DNA of 64,000 bases from Candidatus Tanganyikabacteria bacterium (lineage in GTDB: Bacteria; Cyanobacteriota; Sericytochromatia; S15B-MN24; VGJW01), in the NCBI GenBank assembly GCA_016867265.1, contig VGJW01000014.1, positions 24,778-88,777 of the forward strand, in the 5' to 3' direction. Of this stretch, positions 2,457 to 18,865 are shown one piece after another (the stretch's first letter is position 1; the number at the start of each line of letters is the position of its first letter). A program made the position numbers and the translations under genes. Below the pieces are notes generated by a model. That model saw only the letters and a program-made list of their open reading frames with translations, ran no database searches and was not told the origin of the DNA.

Positions 2457-3218
2457 ATGTCCCAGAAGAAGCTCCTTGCAGCCGCCCTCGTGGCCGGCAC
2501 CGCTGTCCTCGCCGGCTGCGACCCGACTGGCGCCGGCCTCGGCACCACCCTGCCCAGCGTGACGCCGACCCCGGCTGCCACGGCGACCCCGGTGGCCTTC
2601 CTGGGCTTCCCCAGCAACGCGACGCTGACCGGTCGCGTGACCTTCAATGGTGGCGCCCCCGGCGTACTCGACCTCGAGTACAAGACTCCCGGTGGCAACC
2701 GCTCGCCAGTCACCGCGAAGACCGATGCCAACGGGTACTTCAGCTGGGACAATATCGCGGCGGGTACTGCTGTTCAGGTCATCTGGGATGACGGAAACAA
2801 GGCGGCCGTCACCACGGCCGATTTCAACGTGCCCGGCATCTTCGTTTCCGACGCTATCCAAGCCAAGTCGGGTCCGGACAAGATGAACCCGATGGTCAAT
2901 ATGGATATCCAGTGGCAGCCCAACCCGACGCCGGCCATCGGCGCGACGGCCAATGGGACCTTTGGCATCTCCTCCGTGATTGCTAATCTAAACGCCAAGT
3001 ACCTAGTGTCGATCTTCGGGTCTGACAAGTCGGCGAAGCTCACCGTCGAGATCCCGGCGGGCTCCACGACCGTAAGCCTCGCGTCCAATACCGGTTACAC
3101 CGGCCTTGCCGCTGGCGACTACTTCTATCAAATCAAGTTCTTCAAGAACGAGAGCGGTGCGACGTTCGGCGGCTCGAACTTCTACGGATCCACGAAGTAC
3201 ATCCCTTTCAAGAAGTAG
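2457..3218 (+). CDS. Secreted lipoprotein with a carboxypeptidase-regulatory-like beta-sandwich
   Basis: 253 aa with a clear lipoprotein signal peptide: two Lys at positions 4-5, a hydrophobic core and lipobox LAGC with Cys21. A Pro/Thr/Ala linker follows (about residues 28-45), then a domain with a GRVTFNGG...TDANGYFSWDNI pattern typical of CarboxypepD_reg/CNA-B-like sandwiches. The C-terminal half looks like a second beta domain. The ATG at 2457 is set by the signal peptide, although the frame is open much further upstream. It stands alone and is followed by a strong hairpin terminator. Substrate and role are unknown. Confidence 0.75.
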   Translation: MSQKKLLAAALVAGTAVLAGCDPTGAGLGTTLPSVTPTPAATATPVAFLGFPSNATLTGRVTFNGGAPGVLDLEYKTPGGNRSPVTAKTDANGYFSWDNIAAGTAVQVIWDDGNKAAVTTADFNVPGIFVSDAIQAKSGPDKMNPMVNMDIQWQPNPTPAIGATANGTFGISSVIANLNAKYLVSIFGSDKSAKLTVEIPAGSTTVSLASNTGYTGLAAGDYFYQIKFFKNESGATFGGSNFYGSTKYIPFKK

Positions 3219-8556: not shown

Positions 8557-8676
8557 GCTTTATCTGGTGGCCGCCTTGGCTCCTCCTAACGCGGGGATCG
8601 TACCCGACTTCTCTCCGCAGGATAGGGCAAGAACGAACTTCATGCGGTGACGAGTTACCATCGCATCCCCCCTGTG

Positions 8677-12316: not shown

Positions 12317-12931
12317 TCAGCGCGGCTTCTGCAGCTTCTGCAGGATGACCGCCAAGACCTCGGGTGTCGCGTACTCGTTGATGGCGAACTGGCCGTTGGC
12401 CGCCCGGTAGGTCTGGTGCAGGTTGTTGTCCATCTTGAAGCGCTGGACAGCAATCCCGAGGGGCTCGTCGTAACCGCCGGACGCCGACACCTGGTAACCC
12501 AACCGGCCCAGTGCCGCCCGCAGTTGGAGCACCGCATCTGCGTTGCCCGTTCCGGGGCCCAGCGTGCCACTTCCGGCATAGGTGCCGACCTCGGCCCGGA
12601 AGGCATCGAGGTTGGCCTTGGAGGGCTGAAGCTGGTACTGGTTGGCAAGCGCCCGATCCTGCGGCGTCAGGGTTGTCGCAGCATCATCGACGGGCTGCCC
12701 GAAGAGGCGCTTCACGAAGTTGACGATGCCGCGAAACATGTTGCCGGCCACTTCCATCGCCTTGGCAAAGAAACCCTGCAACACCACAATCGTGCCACCG
12801 GCCGCGGCCGGGGCCTGCGGCGCGGGCAGAGCGGGCGCAGCAACCGGCGCGACGACGGGAGGCGTGGGCGTTCCCCCTGCAGCAACCTGGGCGCGGAAGA
12901 CCATCGGACGATGCGACAGGGAAGCAATCAT
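12317..12931 (-). CDS. Protein with amphipathic helix and peptidoglycan-binding-like domain
   Basis: 204 aa. After a short Pro/Ala-rich head (residues 15-45), residues 46-78 form a strongly hydrophobic/amphipathic stretch (VLQGFFAKAMEVAGNMFRG). The C-terminal 90 residues resemble a PG_binding_1 fold (LRAALGRLGYQVS...FKMDNNL). ATG 12931 follows GAGGTGCCGAG. There is no classical signal peptide. The hydrophobic segment near the N terminus echoes the MGG proteins upstream on the same strand, which may mean a shared export or membrane-insertion route. Function unknown. Confidence 0.55.
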   Translation of the reverse strand: MIASLSHRPMVFRAQVAAGGTPTPPVVAPVAAPALPAPQAPAAAGGTIVVLQGFFAKAMEVAGNMFRGIVNFVKRLFGQPVDDAATTLTPQDRALANQYQLQPSKANLDAFRAEVGTYAGSGTLGPGTGNADAVLQLRAALGRLGYQVSASGGYDEPLGIAVQRFKMDNNLHQTYRAANGQFAINEYATPEVLAVILQKLQKPR

Positions 12932-13025: not shown

Positions 13026-13925
13026 CTAAACCTCGGAGCTAAGGCGACGGCCAAACCACAGCCTGTCGACACGACGCGATTGGACCTCGACTGGATCAAA
13101 CAGGGCCTCGACACCACGCACGCCTGCAACCGTGAGGAAACGCATTTGTCCGCGCCCCAACTCGCGGGCAGCCAGCTTGAATCGATCGAGCAGGGCGCCC
13201 GACAAGCCAGCCGGCCGATGGCGGAGACGCACGGCGATCTCGTAGAGCAGCACGGTGTCGACGTCCTCGGACATGCCGAGGATGGCCGCAACCGGCTGGC
13301 CACCCCGCCAGGCAACCGCACCCAGGAGTCCGCCATCCCGCGCGTCGTGCAAGGCGTGGAGCAGGCGACGGCAACGATCAGGCGTGGGCCAGTCCGGAAA
13401 CGTCAGGTAAACGCCGTTCAGGCTGCCGACATTGACGGACGACAGCATGGCCCCGACGCGGGCAAAGGACTCGGGTTCTAGTGGACGGAGCTCATAGCCA
13501 TCCGGCAGGGGCCTGGGCGTCGGGTTGGCCAGCCCGAGATCATAGTCGTGGGCCACACGCTGGTAGGCCCTGTATCCCGCAGGCACGGCAAGCCTTTCGA
13601 AGGCAGGGCTGCCTGGAAGGCCGAGAATGGCCTCCTCCGGAACCAGCACGGCGGCGACTCCGGGTTGCACCAGCAGATCAGGCAACCAGGGCAAGCAGGT
13701 CGGTACCTCGAGGGCCCGGACGACCAGCAACGGACCGTGGCGATCGATCAGGGCAGCCGCATCCGACTCGAACCAGACGCAGCCCGGAGCATCGCCGAAG
13801 CGACGCACGCCGGCTTCCATCCAGCGGGCGCCAACGGGCTGCCCCATACGGGTGGCCCCGGCCTGCAGGACCCGAAGGACCTCTGGCGCATCGAACAGGC
13901 CGGCGGAACGCGGCGCCACGATCAA
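13026..13925 (-). CDS. GNAT-like acyltransferase-fold protein, unassigned
   Basis: About 299 aa. The C-terminal half has an acetyltransferase texture: YELRPLEPESFARVGAML, then a beta-strand GGLLGAVAWRGGQPVAAILGMSE, and a helix rich in Arg/Leu. A canonical Q/RxxGxG/A acetyl-CoA loop is not clear (RHRPAGLSGALL is the nearest). The N-terminal half may be a degenerate second GNAT domain. The start is TTG 13925 (overlapping the TGA of the upstream gene) or GTG 13919. Substrate unknown. Confidence 0.5.
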   Translation of the reverse strand: MIVAPRSAGLFDAPEVLRVLQAGATRMGQPVGARWMEAGVRRFGDAPGCVWFESDAAALIDRHGPLLVVRALEVPTCLPWLPDLLVQPGVAAVLVPEEAILGLPGSPAFERLAVPAGYRAYQRVAHDYDLGLANPTPRPLPDGYELRPLEPESFARVGAMLSSVNVGSLNGVYLTFPDWPTPDRCRRLLHALHDARDGGLLGAVAWRGGQPVAAILGMSEDVDTVLLYEIAVRLRHRPAGLSGALLDRFKLAARELGRGQMRFLTVAGVRGVEALFDPVEVQSRRVDRLWFGRRLSSEV

Positions 13926-15205
13926 TCCGCCGGAGGCGGCTCGAAGCCGTAACGCAAGGTCTCCTCGCGCTGGTCGGCGTCGGCAGGAAAGAGTCGGGCA
14001 AGGGCAGGCACCCCGGCAACCAGCTTGTGCGCGCCAAGGACGGCGGTGACGCGGCCATCCAGTTGCCTCCACACAGGCATCGACAGGATACGGGCGGCCT
14101 GACCGACCGACCCCGAGACCAGTTCCTTGAGCAGGACCCGGGCCACATGGGCATCTGCACGGGCCTCGAACAACACGTCAGCCAACGCACTGGCCCTGAC
14201 CTTGGCCTCGACCTGGCTCGCGAAGAGGGCGACCAGAGCCTCGCGTTCCTGCGCGCGGTAGGAATCGGCGATATTCGGCACCCAGCTCAGGTCATCGAAA
14301 ATGGGGGGGGTCGGAGCATCACCCACTCGCTCATCGACATCCTTGGGCGCGGCGCCTTCATCCGGCTCGTGACTTGCTTCATCCTGCACGCCCGGAGCCC
14401 CAGCCACGGGTAGGGGCAGCAATCCATCAAGTCCGGCGAGTTCCGGCAAACTGCTGCCAAGGCCGGGCAGTGGCTCCATGATGCCGCCGAGCCCACCGAG
14501 CCCGCCTCCGTCATCCAAGGACAGCGAGGATAGGCCCTTGGGCTGGACATCTGGCGACGAAGCTGCGGATGGCAAGCCACTTGCCAAGGGAATAGCCGAT
14601 CCGGCGCGACCGCCATCCGAGGACTTGGGCAACGCCGCCTGAGTCACGCGCCATGTCACGTCGTCCTCATCGGGCTGGAACGAAACCTGCAGAGCCTCGG
14701 CGAGCACTCGATGGGCCACCGCCAGATCCATGAGGTGGAAACGCAGCGCAGCCAGATCGGCGACGGCACCCGCCTTGCGATAAGCCACAGTCTGCTGGGG
14801 ATCATCGACTTGAATACCTTCGGCAAAGTTGATCTCAAGCGACCGGAGATCCTCCGCCATGTCCGCAACGCGGAGCAAGGCTTTGGTCCGCAGGTTCAGC
14901 TTGAGTTCGATACCCAAGTCCATGTGGTGGTGCCAGCGGACTCGTTCTTGCTGCACCGGGTCAAGGGGATAAGCAGCCTTCATCGCCCGGAACGAGGCCA
15001 CTTCCTGATCGAGCGAGGCGATGAACGAATTTTGCGTGGCCATGGCGTCCATGACCTTTTTCATGACGACGGCCTTGCGTCCCTCGGCCTTCTTGACCAG
15101 TTGGGCCAAGTCCTGACGGCGCGCCTCAAGGTAGGCCTCCTGCTCGGGTTCGGGAAGCGCCGCGAACTCCTCGACGGAGATCAGGTTGGGAACAAGTTCA
15201 TTCAC
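13922..15205 (-). CDS. Uncharacterised helical protein with a disordered centre
   Basis: About 427 aa. Residues 1-200 are helical and charged (ALPEPEQEAYLEARRQDLAQLVKKAEG in segments), with no signal peptide. Residues 210-310 are low-complexity Gly/Ser/Pro/Leu, followed by a helical C-terminal domain (VLFEARADAHVARVLLKELV). I do not recognise a family. GTG 15205 overlaps the stop of a small upstream reading frame by one base; TTG 15211 is an alternative. It is coupled to the GNAT-like gene downstream (TTGA overlap), so both belong to one operon that may start with the LysM gene. Confidence 0.6.
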   Translation of the reverse strand: MNELVPNLISVEEFAALPEPEQEAYLEARRQDLAQLVKKAEGRKAVVMKKVMDAMATQNSFIASLDQEVASFRAMKAAYPLDPVQQERVRWHHHMDLGIELKLNLRTKALLRVADMAEDLRSLEINFAEGIQVDDPQQTVAYRKAGAVADLAALRFHLMDLAVAHRVLAEALQVSFQPDEDDVTWRVTQAALPKSSDGGRAGSAIPLASGLPSAASSPDVQPKGLSSLSLDDGGGLGGLGGIMEPLPGLGSSLPELAGLDGLLPLPVAGAPGVQDEASHEPDEGAAPKDVDERVGDAPTPPIFDDLSWVPNIADSYRAQEREALVALFASQVEAKVRASALADVLFEARADAHVARVLLKELVSGSVGQAARILSMPVWRQLDGRVTAVLGAHKLVAGVPALARLFPADADQREETLRYGFEPPPAD

Positions 15206-15393
15206 TACCAAAATGCCTGCTGCAACCGCTTGAAGGGACCGAGAGAGTCATACCCACCGAGGAGGCTGCTCAAGACACGCCAAGTGATGACCGCCTCCAT
15301 CCAGAAAAAGAGGCCGACTGCACGTCCCGGGACATGAACAAGCAGTCGGCCCAAAGCCAAAGCCTGGTGGCCGAAGCTGTACTCCGGACCGAC
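15205..15393 (-). CDS. Possible small hydrophobic protein (start uncertain)
   Basis: An open frame between the LysM gene and the 427-aa gene encodes a hydrophobic, Trp/Phe-rich end (GRAVGLFFWMEAVITWRVLSS as its core, shortened to LFFWMEAVITW at the most apolar part). Third codon positions are GC-biased like neighbouring genes, and the stop overlaps the next start by one base, both supporting translation. No convincing start codon or ribosome site is seen; GTC/TTG codons near 15360-15390 are the only options. Treat as tentative. Confidence 0.3.
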   Translation of the reverse strand, partial: VGPEYSFGHQALALGRLLVHVPGRAVGLFFWMEAVITWRVLSSLLGGYDSLGPFKRLQQAFW

Positions 15394-15412: not shown

Positions 15413-15829
15413 TCAGGAGGCACGGACGTCGGCGGGAGACGGCACATTGACGGCATCCCCGGGATAGATGAGGTCTCCCGACGCTTTGCGGGCCTTGCCA
15501 GAGGAATCTTTGCCATCCTTGAAGATGTCGGGATTGGCCGATTTCAGGTCGCCGACCGACACTTTGGCGTCTCTCGATACCTTGCCAATCATATCCCCGC
15601 TCTTCACCGCGATGGTACGCGAGGGTGGTTTGACCGCTTCATTCTTTTTCTCGTCCGCCGCCTTGGCCTCCGCATTGGCGGCGGGCTTCGCAGCCACCGT
15701 GCCCAAGCCCTCGAAGAACGTCGCCAATTTTTTGAAGGCACTTGCGATGCCCTCGAAACTGAACATCTTGCCGATGCCGCTTCCGATGCTGCTGACAGCA
15801 CTCTTGATACCGTTGACTACACCACCCAT
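15413..15829 (-). CDS. MGG-family protein fused to a LysM domain (array copy 1)
   Basis: 138 aa. It opens with MGGVVNGIKSAVSSIGSGIG, a divergent version of the hydrophobic Gly-rich head shared by four neighbours. It continues with an Ala/Lys/Glu linker (residues 47-68), then a LysM-like domain (IAVKSGDMIGKVSRDAKVS...GDLIYPGDAVNVP). LysM binds peptidoglycan glycans, so this member probably sits at the cell wall. There is no Sec signal peptide. ATG 15829 follows AGAGGGGAG at ideal spacing. It is the most downstream copy of the array and lacks the upstream element found before copies 2-5. Confidence 0.65.
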   Translation of the reverse strand: MGGVVNGIKSAVSSIGSGIGKMFSFEGIASAFKKLATFFEGLGTVAAKPAANAEAKAADEKKNEAVKPPSRTIAVKSGDMIGKVSRDAKVSVGDLKSANPDIFKDGKDSSGKARKASGDLIYPGDAVNVPSPADVRAS

Positions 15830-16082
15830 CAACGTTCTCCCCTCTCTGGCTCAACTTCTGGGCGCACATCTGGCAAGCACCGGGTCACCGACGAGATGCA
15901 TAGCCCCACACCCCCTCACGTGCTGAAGAATCGCCGAACTCACTAACGTTCACGCCGCCTTGAGAAAATACGAGAACATTTAAAGGACGGAAGTCCAGTC
16001 ACGATCTAGGCGACAAAATGTTAACGACCAAGCACCTCGTCTCTCTCCAGATCGCCCGAGGGTGGATACCCCCTGGACTGCA

Positions 16083-16319
16083 TCAGGCGAACTGGGACTG
16101 AAAGGCACCGGGCGCCTGCGGCATCTGGGCCCCGGCAATGCGTCCTTGATCCTGCTGGGCCGACATCTGCGAGAAGGCATCGAAGGCCCCCCCGAGCTGC
16201 TGGAAGAGGCCGCCCATCTGCTGCATCTCCGGCACGAACTTGCCGATGGCGTCAAAGATGCCGCCCCGGCCCTGCATCCCCTGAGAAATACCGCTGATGA
16301 CGTTCGCCACGCCACCCAT
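16083..16319 (-). CDS. MGG-family small protein, array copy 2
   Basis: 78 aa. Head MGGVANVISGISQGMQ, then GGIFDAIGKFVPEMQQMGGLFQQLGGAFDAF: two amphipathic Gly-rich helices separated by a Pro at residue 30. The tail is Gln/Ala/Pro rich and unlike the other copies. It aligns with copies 3-5 over residues 1-52 without gaps. ATG 16319 follows AAGGGGGA. An upstream element (ATGAAGTCTTGC at 16415) lies 96 bases before the start. Leaderless and unrecognised. Confidence 0.7.
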   Translation of the reverse strand: MGGVANVISGISQGMQGRGGIFDAIGKFVPEMQQMGGLFQQLGGAFDAFSQMSAQQDQGRIAGAQMPQAPGAFQSQFA

Positions 16320-16420
16320 GTCCGCATCCCCCTTGCTTGACGATCCCCCAGCCCCCCGGCAAGTTCCCGCAAGCGTTCAATCGGCCACGGAATACCATCG
16401 AATGCAAGACTTCATCTGCG
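16320..16420 (-). promoter_or_regulatory. Shared leader of MGG copy 2 with short upstream ORF
   Basis: Contains ATGAAGTCTTGC starting at 16415 (could encode MKSCIRWYSVAD, stop at 16377), then GATTGAACGCTT, a GCCGGGGGG run and the ribosome site AAGGGGGA. The order and spacing of these blocks recur before copies 3 and 5, and the first block before copy 4. Confidence 0.45.
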
Positions 16421-16507
16421 GTTCACCTTGGCACCCTACCCGGGACCTGCCCCCAAGAGGCAGCGGGGACGGCCTGTCGGCTGTCCCCGCAAAGTCCGGC
16501 AAGCCTT

Positions 16508-16767
16508 CAGGCTGCCGCAGGTGCCTACGCTGCCACCTGCGGCGGCCGCGCCACAACCTGAGCGTTCCTCTGCTGATCCCGTTCCCGATTGGATTCTTCC
16601 AGCTTGGCCGCCATCTGGGCGAAGGCATCGACGGCGCCGCTGACCTGCTTGAAGATGTCCCCGATCTGCTTCAACTGGGGCACGAACTGTCCGATGGCGC
16701 CGAAGATGCCACCGATGGCCTGAAGGCCTTGCTGGATACCGCTGACGACGTTGGCAATACCGCCCAT
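16508..16767. repeat. Long direct repeat A (covers MGG copy 3)
   Basis: Nearly the same DNA occurs at 17643-17920 in the same orientation, including the stretch around GAGCGTTCCTCTGCTGATCC with no changes. It indicates a recent tandem duplication or gene conversion of copies 3 and 5. Confidence 0.8.
16525..16767 (-). CDS. MGG-family small protein, array copy 3
   Basis: 80 aa. Head MGGIANVVSGIQQGLQAIGG, then IFGAIGQFVPQLKQIGDIFK and SGAVDAFAQMAAKLEES, ending in a charged/Gln segment (NRERDQQRNAQ) and PPQVAA. Nearly identical to copy 5 over residues 1-72. ATG 16767 follows AGGGGGG. The reading frame stays open upstream with DEPFVAGTAGG, which resembles DDPFVKGAAGG before copy 5; this reflects duplicated leader DNA, since the ribosome site favours the ATG. 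Confidence 0.7.
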   Translation of the reverse strand: MGGIANVVSGIQQGLQAIGGIFGAIGQFVPQLKQIGDIFKQVSGAVDAFAQMAAKLEESNRERDQQRNAQVVARPPQVAA

Positions 16768-16870
16768 GTTCACGACCCCCCCTGCATGTGGTCCGATGCG
16801 CCCCCCGGCGGTACCTGCCACAAAGGGTTCATCGCGCTTCAAGCACGCGGACTGGAAGATTTCACGAAGC
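16768..16870 (-). promoter_or_regulatory. Shared leader of MGG copy 3 with short upstream ORF
   Basis: GTGAAATCTTCC begins at 16865, 98 bases before the start (potential peptide MKSSSPRA). It is followed by GCGATGAACCCTTTGTGG, ACCGCCGGGGGG and the ribosome site. Best matched to the leader of copy 5. Confidence 0.45.
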
Positions 16871-16996
16871 GTTGAATGCCGGGAGACAAGTCTGAAACCT
16901 TCAACCCGAAAGGCCGCAGGACGGCCCAAAGGCGAAAGCGGGCCGCATCGGTGGATGCAGCCCGCCAATCTTGAAATGAGGCGGAAGCGCGCGTCC

Positions 16997-17374
16997 TTAC
17001 TTGGCCAAGGCACTCAGGATGGACGCTGGGTCAAAATTCCCGGACTTGATGGCATCGAGCACACCGTTGACCGTGCCGCTCGCCGCCTGAACCTCCTGCA
17101 GGTTGTTGTAACCCGTTCCGGCCAGTGGATCTGCGGCGGAACCGGTAGGGACCGGAGGCGCAGAGACGCCTGCCTTTGCGGCATCCTTGCCTGCCTCCTC
17201 GGCGTCGGCCTTCTCGTTGATTTTGGACATGACCGAGAAGGCATCGGAAGCTTGGTTGAGCATGCTGCCGATCTGCTTGAACTGCGGAACGAACTGGCCA
17301 ATGGCCCCCATCAAGCCACCAACGGCCTTCAGGCCCTGCTGGATGCCACTGACGATATTCGCGACTCCACCCAT
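16997..17374 (-). CDS. MGG-family protein with extended C terminus, array copy 4
   Basis: 125 aa, the longest of the tail-variable copies. Head MGGVANIVSGIQQGLKAVGG, then LMGAIGQFVPQFKQIGSMLNQ. After residue 55 it diverges: an Ala/Glu/Lys-rich stretch, Pro-rich APPVPTGSAADP, then a separate helical end (LQEVQAASGTVNGVLDAI...DPASILSALAK). ATG 17374 follows AGAGGGAGG. The upstream element GTGAAATTTAGC starts at 17469, 95 bases before. The conserved head with different tails suggests the head is a common targeting or assembly module. Confidence 0.7.
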   Translation of the reverse strand: MGGVANIVSGIQQGLKAVGGLMGAIGQFVPQFKQIGSMLNQASDAFSVMSKINEKADAEEAGKDAAKAGVSAPPVPTGSAADPLAGTGYNNLQEVQAASGTVNGVLDAIKSGNFDPASILSALAK

Positions 17375-17475
17375 GCTGACGCCTCCCTCTGACTTCCGGG
17401 GTCCACCAACGGAACCACCTAGCTGATCTGTTCTTTGCCCGATTTCAGCGCGCCATCGCTAAATTTCACGCTCAC
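17375..17475 (-). promoter_or_regulatory. Leader of MGG copy 4 with a possible 16-18 aa upstream ORF
   Basis: GTG at 17475 is preceded by GAGGGGACC and reads MSVKFSDGALKSGKEQIS to a TAG at 17419; GTG 17469 within it aligns with the MK-start element of the other leaders. This is the only leader whose upstream ORF has a clear ribosome site. Confidence 0.4.
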
Positions 17476-17641
17476 GTAATGGTCCCCTCGACCACCAGCG
17501 TGCGAAAGTTGCCGCATCCCAGTGAACCCGGACGCTGGCGCGTGGCACACCACGCGGTTTCTAGCGGACACCCCGGTACCGCCCAAAGGCCGATGGGGGT
17601 GGCCCCCCGACCACCCCCGCCAAGCCTCGCGATCCAGGCCG

Positions 17642-17920
17642 TCAGGCTGCCGCAGACGCCCGGGCTGCCGCAAATGGGTGGCCTGCCACCTGCGGCGGCC
17701 GCGCCGCAACCTGAGCGTTCCTCTGCTGATCCCGTTCCCGATTGGATTCTTCGAGCTTGGCCGCCATCTGGGCGAAGGCATCGACGGCCCCGCTGACCTG
17801 CTTGAACATGTCACCCACCTGCTTGAGTTGGGGTACGAACTGGCCTATGGCGTCGAAGATGCCACCGATGGCCTGCAGGCCCTGCTGAAACCCGCTGACG
17901 ACGTTGGCGATACCACCCAT
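17642..17920 (-). CDS. MGG-family small protein, array copy 5
   Basis: 92 aa. Head MGGIANVVSGFQQGLQAIGG, then IFDAIGQFVPQLKQVGDMFK, SGAVDAFAQMAAKLEES and NRERDQQRNAQ as in copy 3, but with a longer Ala/Pro tail (HPFAAARASAAA). ATG 17920 has the best ribosome site of the array (CAGGAGGCACAATC). The leader begins with ATGAAATCTTGC at 18019. It is the first gene of the minus-strand run and lies divergent to the secreted-protein gene at 18095. Confidence 0.7.
   Translation of the reverse strand: MGGIANVVSGFQQGLQAIGGIFDAIGQFVPQLKQVGDMFKQVSGAVDAFAQMAAKLEESNRERDQQRNAQVAARPPQVAGHPFAAARASAAA
17643..17920. repeat. Long direct repeat B (covers MGG copy 5)
   Basis: Partner of the repeat at 16508-16767. 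Differences are scattered substitutions, mostly silent or conservative, plus a small extension at the 3' end of the gene. Confidence 0.8.
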
Positions 17921-18022: not shown

Positions 18023-18094
18023 TGCTTTATTCGTGTGTACCGAAGCCCGGACAAGTTCGGGCATGATGCGTATGTCCCGATTCCGGAGGAAGCC

Positions 18095-18865
18095 GTGCGT
18101 CACATCAATTGGTTGGCCGCCCCCCTGCTCGCCACGGCCATCGCCGCGCCCGCCGCGGCCGACGAAATGCCGGGCGTGCTGCCCGGCCTCGAGAAGGCGC
18201 CACCCTTCGTTGCCGAGGTCGAGGTCCACAACGCCCAGGCCAAGGGCGTGGTCTACCGCCTGAACTACGTGCCCGGGCGCATGCGCCTCGAGTCCCTCTC
18301 CGGCACGCCCAACGGCGAACATCAAGTCATCATCAGCAATCTCGTGGACCACGTCTCCTACGTCGAGGTCTTCGGGTCGTGGTATCGGGTACGCAACGAT
18401 GCCCTGGGCGTCGGCGGCATGAGCTATGGCCAGACGGGTGGTTTCCGGACCCGCAAGCTGGGCCGCAAGACGGTCGAAGGCCGCCTGTGCGAAGGCATGG
18501 AGCTGACCAGCCCCGATGGCCGTACCCGGGTGGAACAGTGGCTCTGGAACAACATGCCGGTCTTGGCGACCGTCCATCAGGCTTCGGGGGTGACCACGGC
18601 CAAGTACCGGTCGCTGACGGCGCAGCGAACTCCGGACGCGTGGTTCCAGGTTCCCGCCGGGGCCAAGGTCGAGGATCTCTCGATCCCGGCCGCGCCAAGC
18701 GGGGGCGGCGTGTCCTCGATGCCGGCCATGCCGGCGATGCCGCCCGGCTACGCGATGCCGCAAGGGATACCTCAGGGCGGCGGCCAGGACATGGCGCAGC
18801 TGCAGAACATGCTTCGCCAGCTGCAGCAAAATGCCAACCCCGAATACGTGGCCCCGATGGATTGA
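18095..18865 (+). CDS. Secreted protein, DUF4412/LolA-like texture
   Basis: 256 aa from GTG 18095, which follows GGAGGAAGCC. It has a signal peptide with a Leu/Ala core and cleavage after APAAA. The mature part has FVAEVEVHNAQAKGVVYRLNYVPGRMR, typical of DUF4412-like or LolA-like beta proteins that monitor or bind a ligand. The C terminus is Met/Pro/Gly-rich low complexity (PAMPAMPPGYAMPQG), then a Gln-rich helix. Role unknown; probably periplasmic or cell-surface. Confidence 0.65.
   Translation: MRHINWLAAPLLATAIAAPAAADEMPGVLPGLEKAPPFVAEVEVHNAQAKGVVYRLNYVPGRMRLESLSGTPNGEHQVIISNLVDHVSYVEVFGSWYRVRNDALGVGGMSYGQTGGFRTRKLGRKTVEGRLCEGMELTSPDGRTRVEQWLWNNMPVLATVHQASGVTTAKYRSLTAQRTPDAWFQVPAGAKVEDLSIPAAPSGGGVSSMPAMPAMPPGYAMPQGIPQGGGQDMAQLQNMLRQLQQNANPEYVAPMD

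Follow-up and report, generated by a model that had tools for sequence, protein, structure and literature searches.

A tandem array of MGG-headed proteins

The window analyzed here is a 64,000-nucleotide (nt) stretch of a Candidatus Tanganyikabacteria contig (VGJW01000014.1). At 15413-17920 it carries five small genes in tandem whose products all begin with Met-Gly-Gly (MGG). These proteins belong to a family with a common N-terminal head and modular tails, which in one order is tied to an undescribed cassette encoding a helical protein (CC) and a predicted tandem GNAT-fold enzyme. We tentatively read the head as an N-terminal targeting or assembly module that bears different tails, and we think it possible that in this order the GNAT modifies the glycine start with CC as a partner; the five genes would then be the multiplied first part of an MGG-CC-GNAT cassette. 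The five genes are as follows.

15413..15829, minus strand: MGG1, 138 amino acids (aa); divergent head, Lys/Ala-rich linker, and LysM-like tail
15533..15607, minus strand: LysM-like stretch of MGG1 (residues 75-99), a subthreshold Pfam match
16083..16319, minus strand: MGG2, 78 aa; likely orthologues P0025 (83% over 78) and P0027 (81% over 64)
16525..16767, minus strand: MGG3, 80 aa; 94% identity to MGG5
16997..17374, minus strand: MGG4, 125 aa, with a helical extension; likely orthologues P0023 (82%), P0012 (71%), P0013 (66%), and P0024 (60%)
17642..17920, minus strand: MGG5, 92 aa; Pro/Ala-rich end

The five minus-strand open reading frames (ORFs) start at 15829, 16319, 16767, 17374, and 17920; all begin MGG[IV][AV]N, and a G-rich Shine-Dalgarno-like stretch lies upstream of each start. 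Over about 55 residues, copies 2 to 5 can be aligned gap-free, and F28-V29-P30 is constant among them; hydrophobic-moment values agree with two amphipathic helices in the heads. A reading made from the sequence alone had proposed that the five are paralogues with a constant start and variable tails and that they fit no known family. The paralogy was borne out, and searches of Pfam, PHROGs, and NCBIfam gave the five no match above cutoff or beyond noise. An own-genome profile search (E up to 1) listed these five MGG proteins and no further copy, and no signal peptide was evident in them by eye. Membership in two families of small proteins failed on the features tested: for WXG100/ESAT-6, none of 15 sequences checked has a Trp and the five have no Pfam match; for class II bacteriocins, no leader precedes MGG, and the best NCBIfam match has an E of 0.21.

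At the DNA level, copies 2, 3, and 5 repeat in register over 259 nt and copies 2 to 5 over 150 nt. Copies 3 and 5 are recent duplicates, with a nonsynonymous divergence (dN) of 0.037 and a synonymous divergence (dS) of 0.326. dN/dS was computed for 5 of the 10 copy pairs and was 0.25 to 0.46 in the other four; in the pairs computed, the genes are under purifying selection.

MGG1 is a distant member of the head family. Its profile alignment to the family of copies 2 to 5 is weak (E 7e-4, probability 27%), and it scores above 60 of 60 MGG-keeping shuffles against the copy 2-5 profile. Its tail, which had been called a LysM domain, resembles one below the cutoff: the match scores 19.2 bits against a Pfam cutoff of 20.9 and covers positions 3-27 of 43. 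The tail was also not among the 10 matches listed by an own-genome LysM search. The best NCBIfam match of MGG1 is spore_safA (E 1.8e-4), below its cutoff.

The array looks old and differentiated: each of its relatives from other assemblies sorts with one copy or copy pair. P0025 and P0027 group with copy 2; P0023, P0012, P0013, and P0024 with copy 4; and P0007, P0009, P0010, and P0011 with the copy 3/5 pair (80 to 95%). Those whose source gives a name come from Candidatus Sericytochromatia bacterium, and on this basis the window's bacterium likely falls in that group, a sister of the cyanobacteria. The locus tags (VKP57_03075 and 03080 with a partner at 03090; VKO64_10940, 10950, and 10955; VKO21_08610 beside a partner at 08605) suggest the same gene order in those assemblies, as read from the tag numbers alone rather than from the contigs. 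For the LysM-tailed copy 1, the relative searches returned no close relative; the best identity among the sequences compared is 36%, to copy 2 itself.

MGG genes precede a conserved CC-GNAT pair

Two genes follow the array on the same strand; neither was among the observations of the sequence-only reading.

13922..15211, minus strand: CC partner, 429 aa; no Pfam family
13026..13925, minus strand: predicted tandem GNAT-fold acyltransferase, 299 aa if the start is the TTG overlapping the CC stop (TTGA)

Searching 18 genomes of the class with CC and GNAT led to syntenic loci in seven (G001, G002, G004, G005, G007, G008, and G009). In all 8 complete slots, from 7 genomes, the gene directly upstream of a full-length, GNAT-paired CC starts with MGG (one slot each in G000, G001, G002, G004, G005, and G008, and two in G009; the G007 slot is cut by a contig end). 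The GNAT start codon overlaps the CC stop or lies within 15 nt of it in 7 of 8 cassettes. Strong MGG matches (E at most 2e-11) occur in 7 of the 18 genomes, full CC in 8, and GNAT in 9 (two weak), and every genome with a strong MGG match also has CC and GNAT. In G006, which also falls in this order, CC is represented by its C-terminal domain alone, and neither MGG nor GNAT gave a match. When 194 phylum genomes were searched, with at most 10 candidates per genome scored for CC, CC gave a match in 9, every one of them from this order. The MGG profile at E 1e-4 gave matches in 8, of which seven belong to this order and one looks like chance. An alignment of CC run against a large protein set, in which 7,998 candidates sharing most words were scored, returned five proteins; the three that are named are all Sericytochromatia.

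The cassette varies. The MGG-CC pair occurs twice in a row ahead of one GNAT in G009, and G008 has a second MGG-CC pair elsewhere with no GNAT beside it. G002 has the one strong second GNAT copy (G002:C68; L055:5824-7522, minus strand), and its directly upstream neighbor, P0032, starts with MGG. This protein of 219 aa has no CC beside it and only weak matches elsewhere in the class; it is unlike the heads apart from MGG and is not recognizable as a head beyond those residues (6 of 60 shuffles score as high). A broken CC-like stretch in G005 (L052:1607-2105, plus strand), upstream of an intact MGG-CC-GNAT set, is a sign of local duplication and decay.

A crude heuristic gene picker was used to gauge how unusual an MGG start is. 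From the window and 36 fetched loci it picked 434 genes, and 12 of these start with MGG: 11 in MGG loci and P0032. The picker undercounts MGG, because it started window copies 1 and 3 elsewhere and missed two MGG genes in G013, and it gave an MGG start by itself in 7 of the 8 slots. An MGG start in 8 of 8 slots compared with 1 of 423 other picks gives a Fisher's p of 3e-16, which is only a guide because related slots are counted together, most notably those of G002 and G004, and because an MGG scan first brought some of them to notice.

M1, G2, and G3 are the sole invariant columns of a 16-member head alignment, which leaves out truncated relatives, and the heads stay amphipathic by hydrophobic moment. 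When proteins were tested against the copy 2-5 profile, 6 of 9 beat 60 of 60 shuffles. The earlier proposal that different tails share an N-terminal signal gains support in a narrower form, in which only M-G-G is invariant.

The predicted enzyme and its helical partner

By its predicted fold, the enzyme encoded at 13026-13925 is a tandem GNAT; the only families that it matched were GNAT families, weakly. The GNAT family alignment (A5) matches RimI-like and other PDB N-acetyltransferases over the C-terminal half. The AlphaFold2 model has a mean pLDDT of 73.8 and a weaker N-terminal half, with values under 50 for residues 1-53, which mostly lie ahead of the likely TTG start at 13925, and of 47 to 61 for residues 61-110. 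Both halves of the model align in Foldseek with tandem GNAT structures (best E 3.3e-11), among them 3tt2, ORF14 (2wpw), VipF, MshD, and PamZ, whose substrates differ. The 50 structure matches listed align over 236 to 356 columns with a TM-score to the query of 0.27 to 0.49 and an identity of 8 to 18%.

The CC model has long helices at residues 21-80 and 88-127, which form a hairpin, a third helix at 142-162, then about 125 low-confidence residues and a helical C-terminal domain at 316-407; compared with the PDB, it gave no match better than E 4. The C-terminal domain recurs in 26 further scattered genes whose loci were fetched (L098-L123, in G000, G001, G002, G004, G005, G006, G008, and G009) and was seen only in this order.

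A possible route and its precedents

The following scheme could account for these observations. Met1 would be removed, exposing the glycine, and the cassette GNAT would acetylate or acylate Gly2. The modified amphipathic head might then bind a membrane or self-assemble, with CC acting as a partner that binds the MGG proteins; their location would be the membrane or envelope. The tails would likely set each copy's place, for example, the cell wall for the LysM-like tail; any route out of the cytoplasm would be a further supposition. The presence of CC and the predicted tandem GNAT beside the MGG genes in this order is why we would favor N-terminal modification over a classical export signal. 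A link to the cell envelope is hinted at by the LysM-like tail together with a neighbor of the cassette whose homologues have PG_binding_1. The surface, pore-forming, or toxin-like roles suggested earlier are supported by no result; a membrane role is left open by the Gly-rich hydrophobic tails of related proteins in G013 and G011, described below.

Eukaryotic N-myristoyltransferase (NMT) is a tandem GNAT-type enzyme, and Arf-type N termini have Gly2 followed by an amphipathic helix, as is predicted for the MGG heads. A bolder and improbable version of our reading is that a cytosolic tandem-GNAT enzyme acylates Gly2 of leaderless MGG proteins, whose heads anchor varied tails to the membrane, with a dedicated helical carrier encoded between them, as a counterpart of eukaryotic N-myristoylation. 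According to the portion of the source considered, NMT is restricted to eukaryotes (PMC7943197). Assignment of the cassette enzyme to the NMT family failed: P0017, the cassette GNAT, had no NMT match in Pfam at E up to 1.

The closest bacterial likeness is the Aat system of CexE and Aap, where, in the part of the report considered, the mature chain begins with glycines and a dedicated acyltransferase acts on it: AatD acylates CexE on its N-terminal glycine, G20, which is invariant, and the second, G21, contributes (PMC7943197). CexE is thus a precedent for a mature Gly-Gly start read by a bacterial acyltransferase (PMC7943197). The differences are that CexE carries a signal peptide for Sec and that AatD is homologous to Lnt (PMC7943197), whereas here there is no evident signal peptide and the enzyme is a predicted GNAT-fold protein. 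In the 16 aligned heads, GG always follows Met1, so a mature Gly-Gly as in CexE and Aap would need Met1 removal. Membership in the Aat system failed on the feature tested, an Lnt-like AatD: the neighboring enzyme, the one gene to which this comparison was confined, matched only GNAT families, weakly, and the GNAT fold.

EsxA is leaderless and helical. Emp1 is a candidate N-acetyltransferase acting on the EsxA N terminus, and the likeness is that of a bacterial enzyme of this kind modifying the N terminus of a small secreted protein (PMC10653941, in part). The abstract describes Emp1 as required for 23 proteins and as not dedicated to EsxA (PMC10653941). The MGG proteins have no WXG100 match. 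Neither the Aat nor the Emp1 precedent, in the parts of the two papers considered, uses an adjacent tandem GNAT (PMC7943197, PMC10653941).

If the proposed scheme is true, an enzyme and its presumed substrate are paired in a cassette and marked by three residues, which could be tested in E. coli with three genes. It would explain unrelated tails under one address label in a little-studied lineage and could represent a new way of tagging signal-less proteins.

Evidence against a strict MGG-GNAT link, and alternative explanations

Several results weigh against Gly2 modification by the cassette enzyme. The main one is that MGG heads occur outside the order. Weak MGG matches came up in five genomes without a strong one when the class was searched at E up to 1. 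In G013, from another family of the class, two proteins (242 and 267 aa) start with MGG behind good ribosome-binding stretches; the array that holds them includes at least three further proteins that start differently. G011 has a single MGG-start protein (267 aa). Against the copy 2-5 profile, both G013 heads outscore all 40 of their shuffles. Neither genome has a match to the cassette GNAT (P0017) or CC; within the stretches read, the GNAT-like gene closest to the heads is in both cases RimI, at a distance of about 10 kb. Thus, either MGG is used without this GNAT or another enzyme serves these heads. The G013 and G011 tails are long and Gly-rich, and a neighboring protein with a non-MGG start shares part of the tail (47% identity over 111 aa), which supports the idea of one head with many tails. 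Because these heads carry other tails and lack the cassette, the head is modular and is older than, or independent of, the cassette. The arrays are as follows.

L125:3681-8622, minus strand, in G013: Gly-rich protein array
L151:13768-14571, plus strand, in G011: Gly-rich protein array

Their members start with MGG, MSLTG, or other residues and have a Gly-rich C-terminal domain in common; five array proteins scanned had no Pfam match.

The enzyme raises further objections. The usual coenzyme A (CoA)-binding loop of GNATs is R/Q-x-x-G-x-G/A, a motif that most of the cassette GNAT family has and the window copy lacks: its loop reads R-H-R-P-A-G, with a proline in place of the first loop glycine. 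Seven of 9 members have RGxG or QGxG, the exceptions being the window copy (RPAG) and G008 (RGKQ). The window GNAT also falls below the Pfam GNAT cutoff, which five relatives pass. Because of the loop and the low score, the window's own GNAT may be weakened or altered. G004 has no standard GNAT start at the aligned position. At the weak GNAT matches G009:C41 (E 9.7e-4) and G003:C33 (E 8.3e-4), the stretches fetched hold no MGG ORF with a ribosome-binding stretch. The tandem GNATs among the PDB matches listed include small-molecule enzymes, and a GNAT's substrate cannot be told from its sequence, according to the part of the source considered (PMC10653941).

The head comparisons and the sampling also count against the link. 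P0035 scores no better than its shuffles (23 of 60 score as high), P0028 loses to 2 of 60, and hhalign probabilities of distant heads are low (12 to 50% in 4 of 5 compared; 89% for P0021). Some slots were first noticed by scanning for MGG ORFs, and with G002 and G004 belonging to a single genus, there are fewer than 8 independent events among the slots.

In a rival that we regard as doubtful yet serious, the MGG motif serves recognition or assembly without being modified, with CC or another factor as its reader, and the substrate of the GNAT is CC lysines or a metabolite. In its favor, the G013 and G011 heads lack both cassette partners, no two cassette genes are joined as closely as CC and GNAT, and GNATs act on many substrates (PMC10653941, in the part considered). 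It leaves unexplained the MGG start of P0032, which has no CC and lies beside the second GNAT copy.

The codon data suggest high expression of the MGG genes, because Gly2 is encoded by GGT in 12 of 14 of them (the window array and 9 genes in other loci) and their ribosome-binding stretches are strong. GGT makes up 17% of the other glycine codons in the same genes and 8 to 11% in 401 other picked genes. This favors a reading in which these are cytoplasmic scaffold or housekeeping proteins whose MGG start mainly reflects strong translation initiation. We consider this unlikely, however: the Gly3 codon varies (GGT, GGA, GGC), so that the amino acid, and not only the DNA, is kept, and the heads stay amphipathic.

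It is distinctly unlikely that the proteins are leaderless substrates of type III or flagellar-like export, with CC as the export partner and the GNAT as an accessory. Pfam T3SS_needle_F had no match among the five MGG proteins. The least probable alternative, that they are membrane-active toxins or bacteriocin-like peptides from which the GNAT protects the producer, draws on small, amphipathic, Gly-rich proteins multiplied with diverging tails, on the Gly-rich hydrophobic tails in G013, and on PamZ, a tandem-GNAT self-resistance enzyme, among the structural matches, but no bacteriocin family matched above noise, no leader or transporter was recognized in the cassette, PADLOC gave no family and no weighty match for the three of five MGG proteins scanned, and different relatives elsewhere go with copy 2, with copy 4, and with the 3/5 pair.

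Neighboring genes and CC paralogues

The neighbor mentioned above lies beyond the GNAT gene.

12317..12931, minus strand: neighbor of the cassette, with the start placed by comparison with homologues of 204 to 214 aa in G001, G002, and G004

Those homologues match Pfam PG_binding_1 above cutoff. The window ORF, scanned from a longer start, gave no Pfam match and has no evident signal peptide. On the other side of the array, a divergently oriented gene at 18035-18865 (plus strand) encodes a protein of no Pfam family; G001 and G002 have homologues of it close to the cassette.

Several paralogues that share the CC C-terminal domain have disordered ends repeating a TRPL-like motif. In 3 of the 26 loci (L104, L110, and L113), a small protein with a WEYEV segment is encoded directly upstream. 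In G006, two proteins are encoded upstream of a CC paralogue: an 81-aa helical protein (P0034; L115:4879-5124, plus strand) with a T3SS-needle match below cutoff and a YjfB-type motility protein (L115:4017-4202, plus strand). G000 has two full-length FlhA-type genes in two flagellar clusters (G000:C5:80004-82001 and G000:C15:51611-53575); FHIPEP matches numbered 10 in G007 and 12 in G008, many of them partial.

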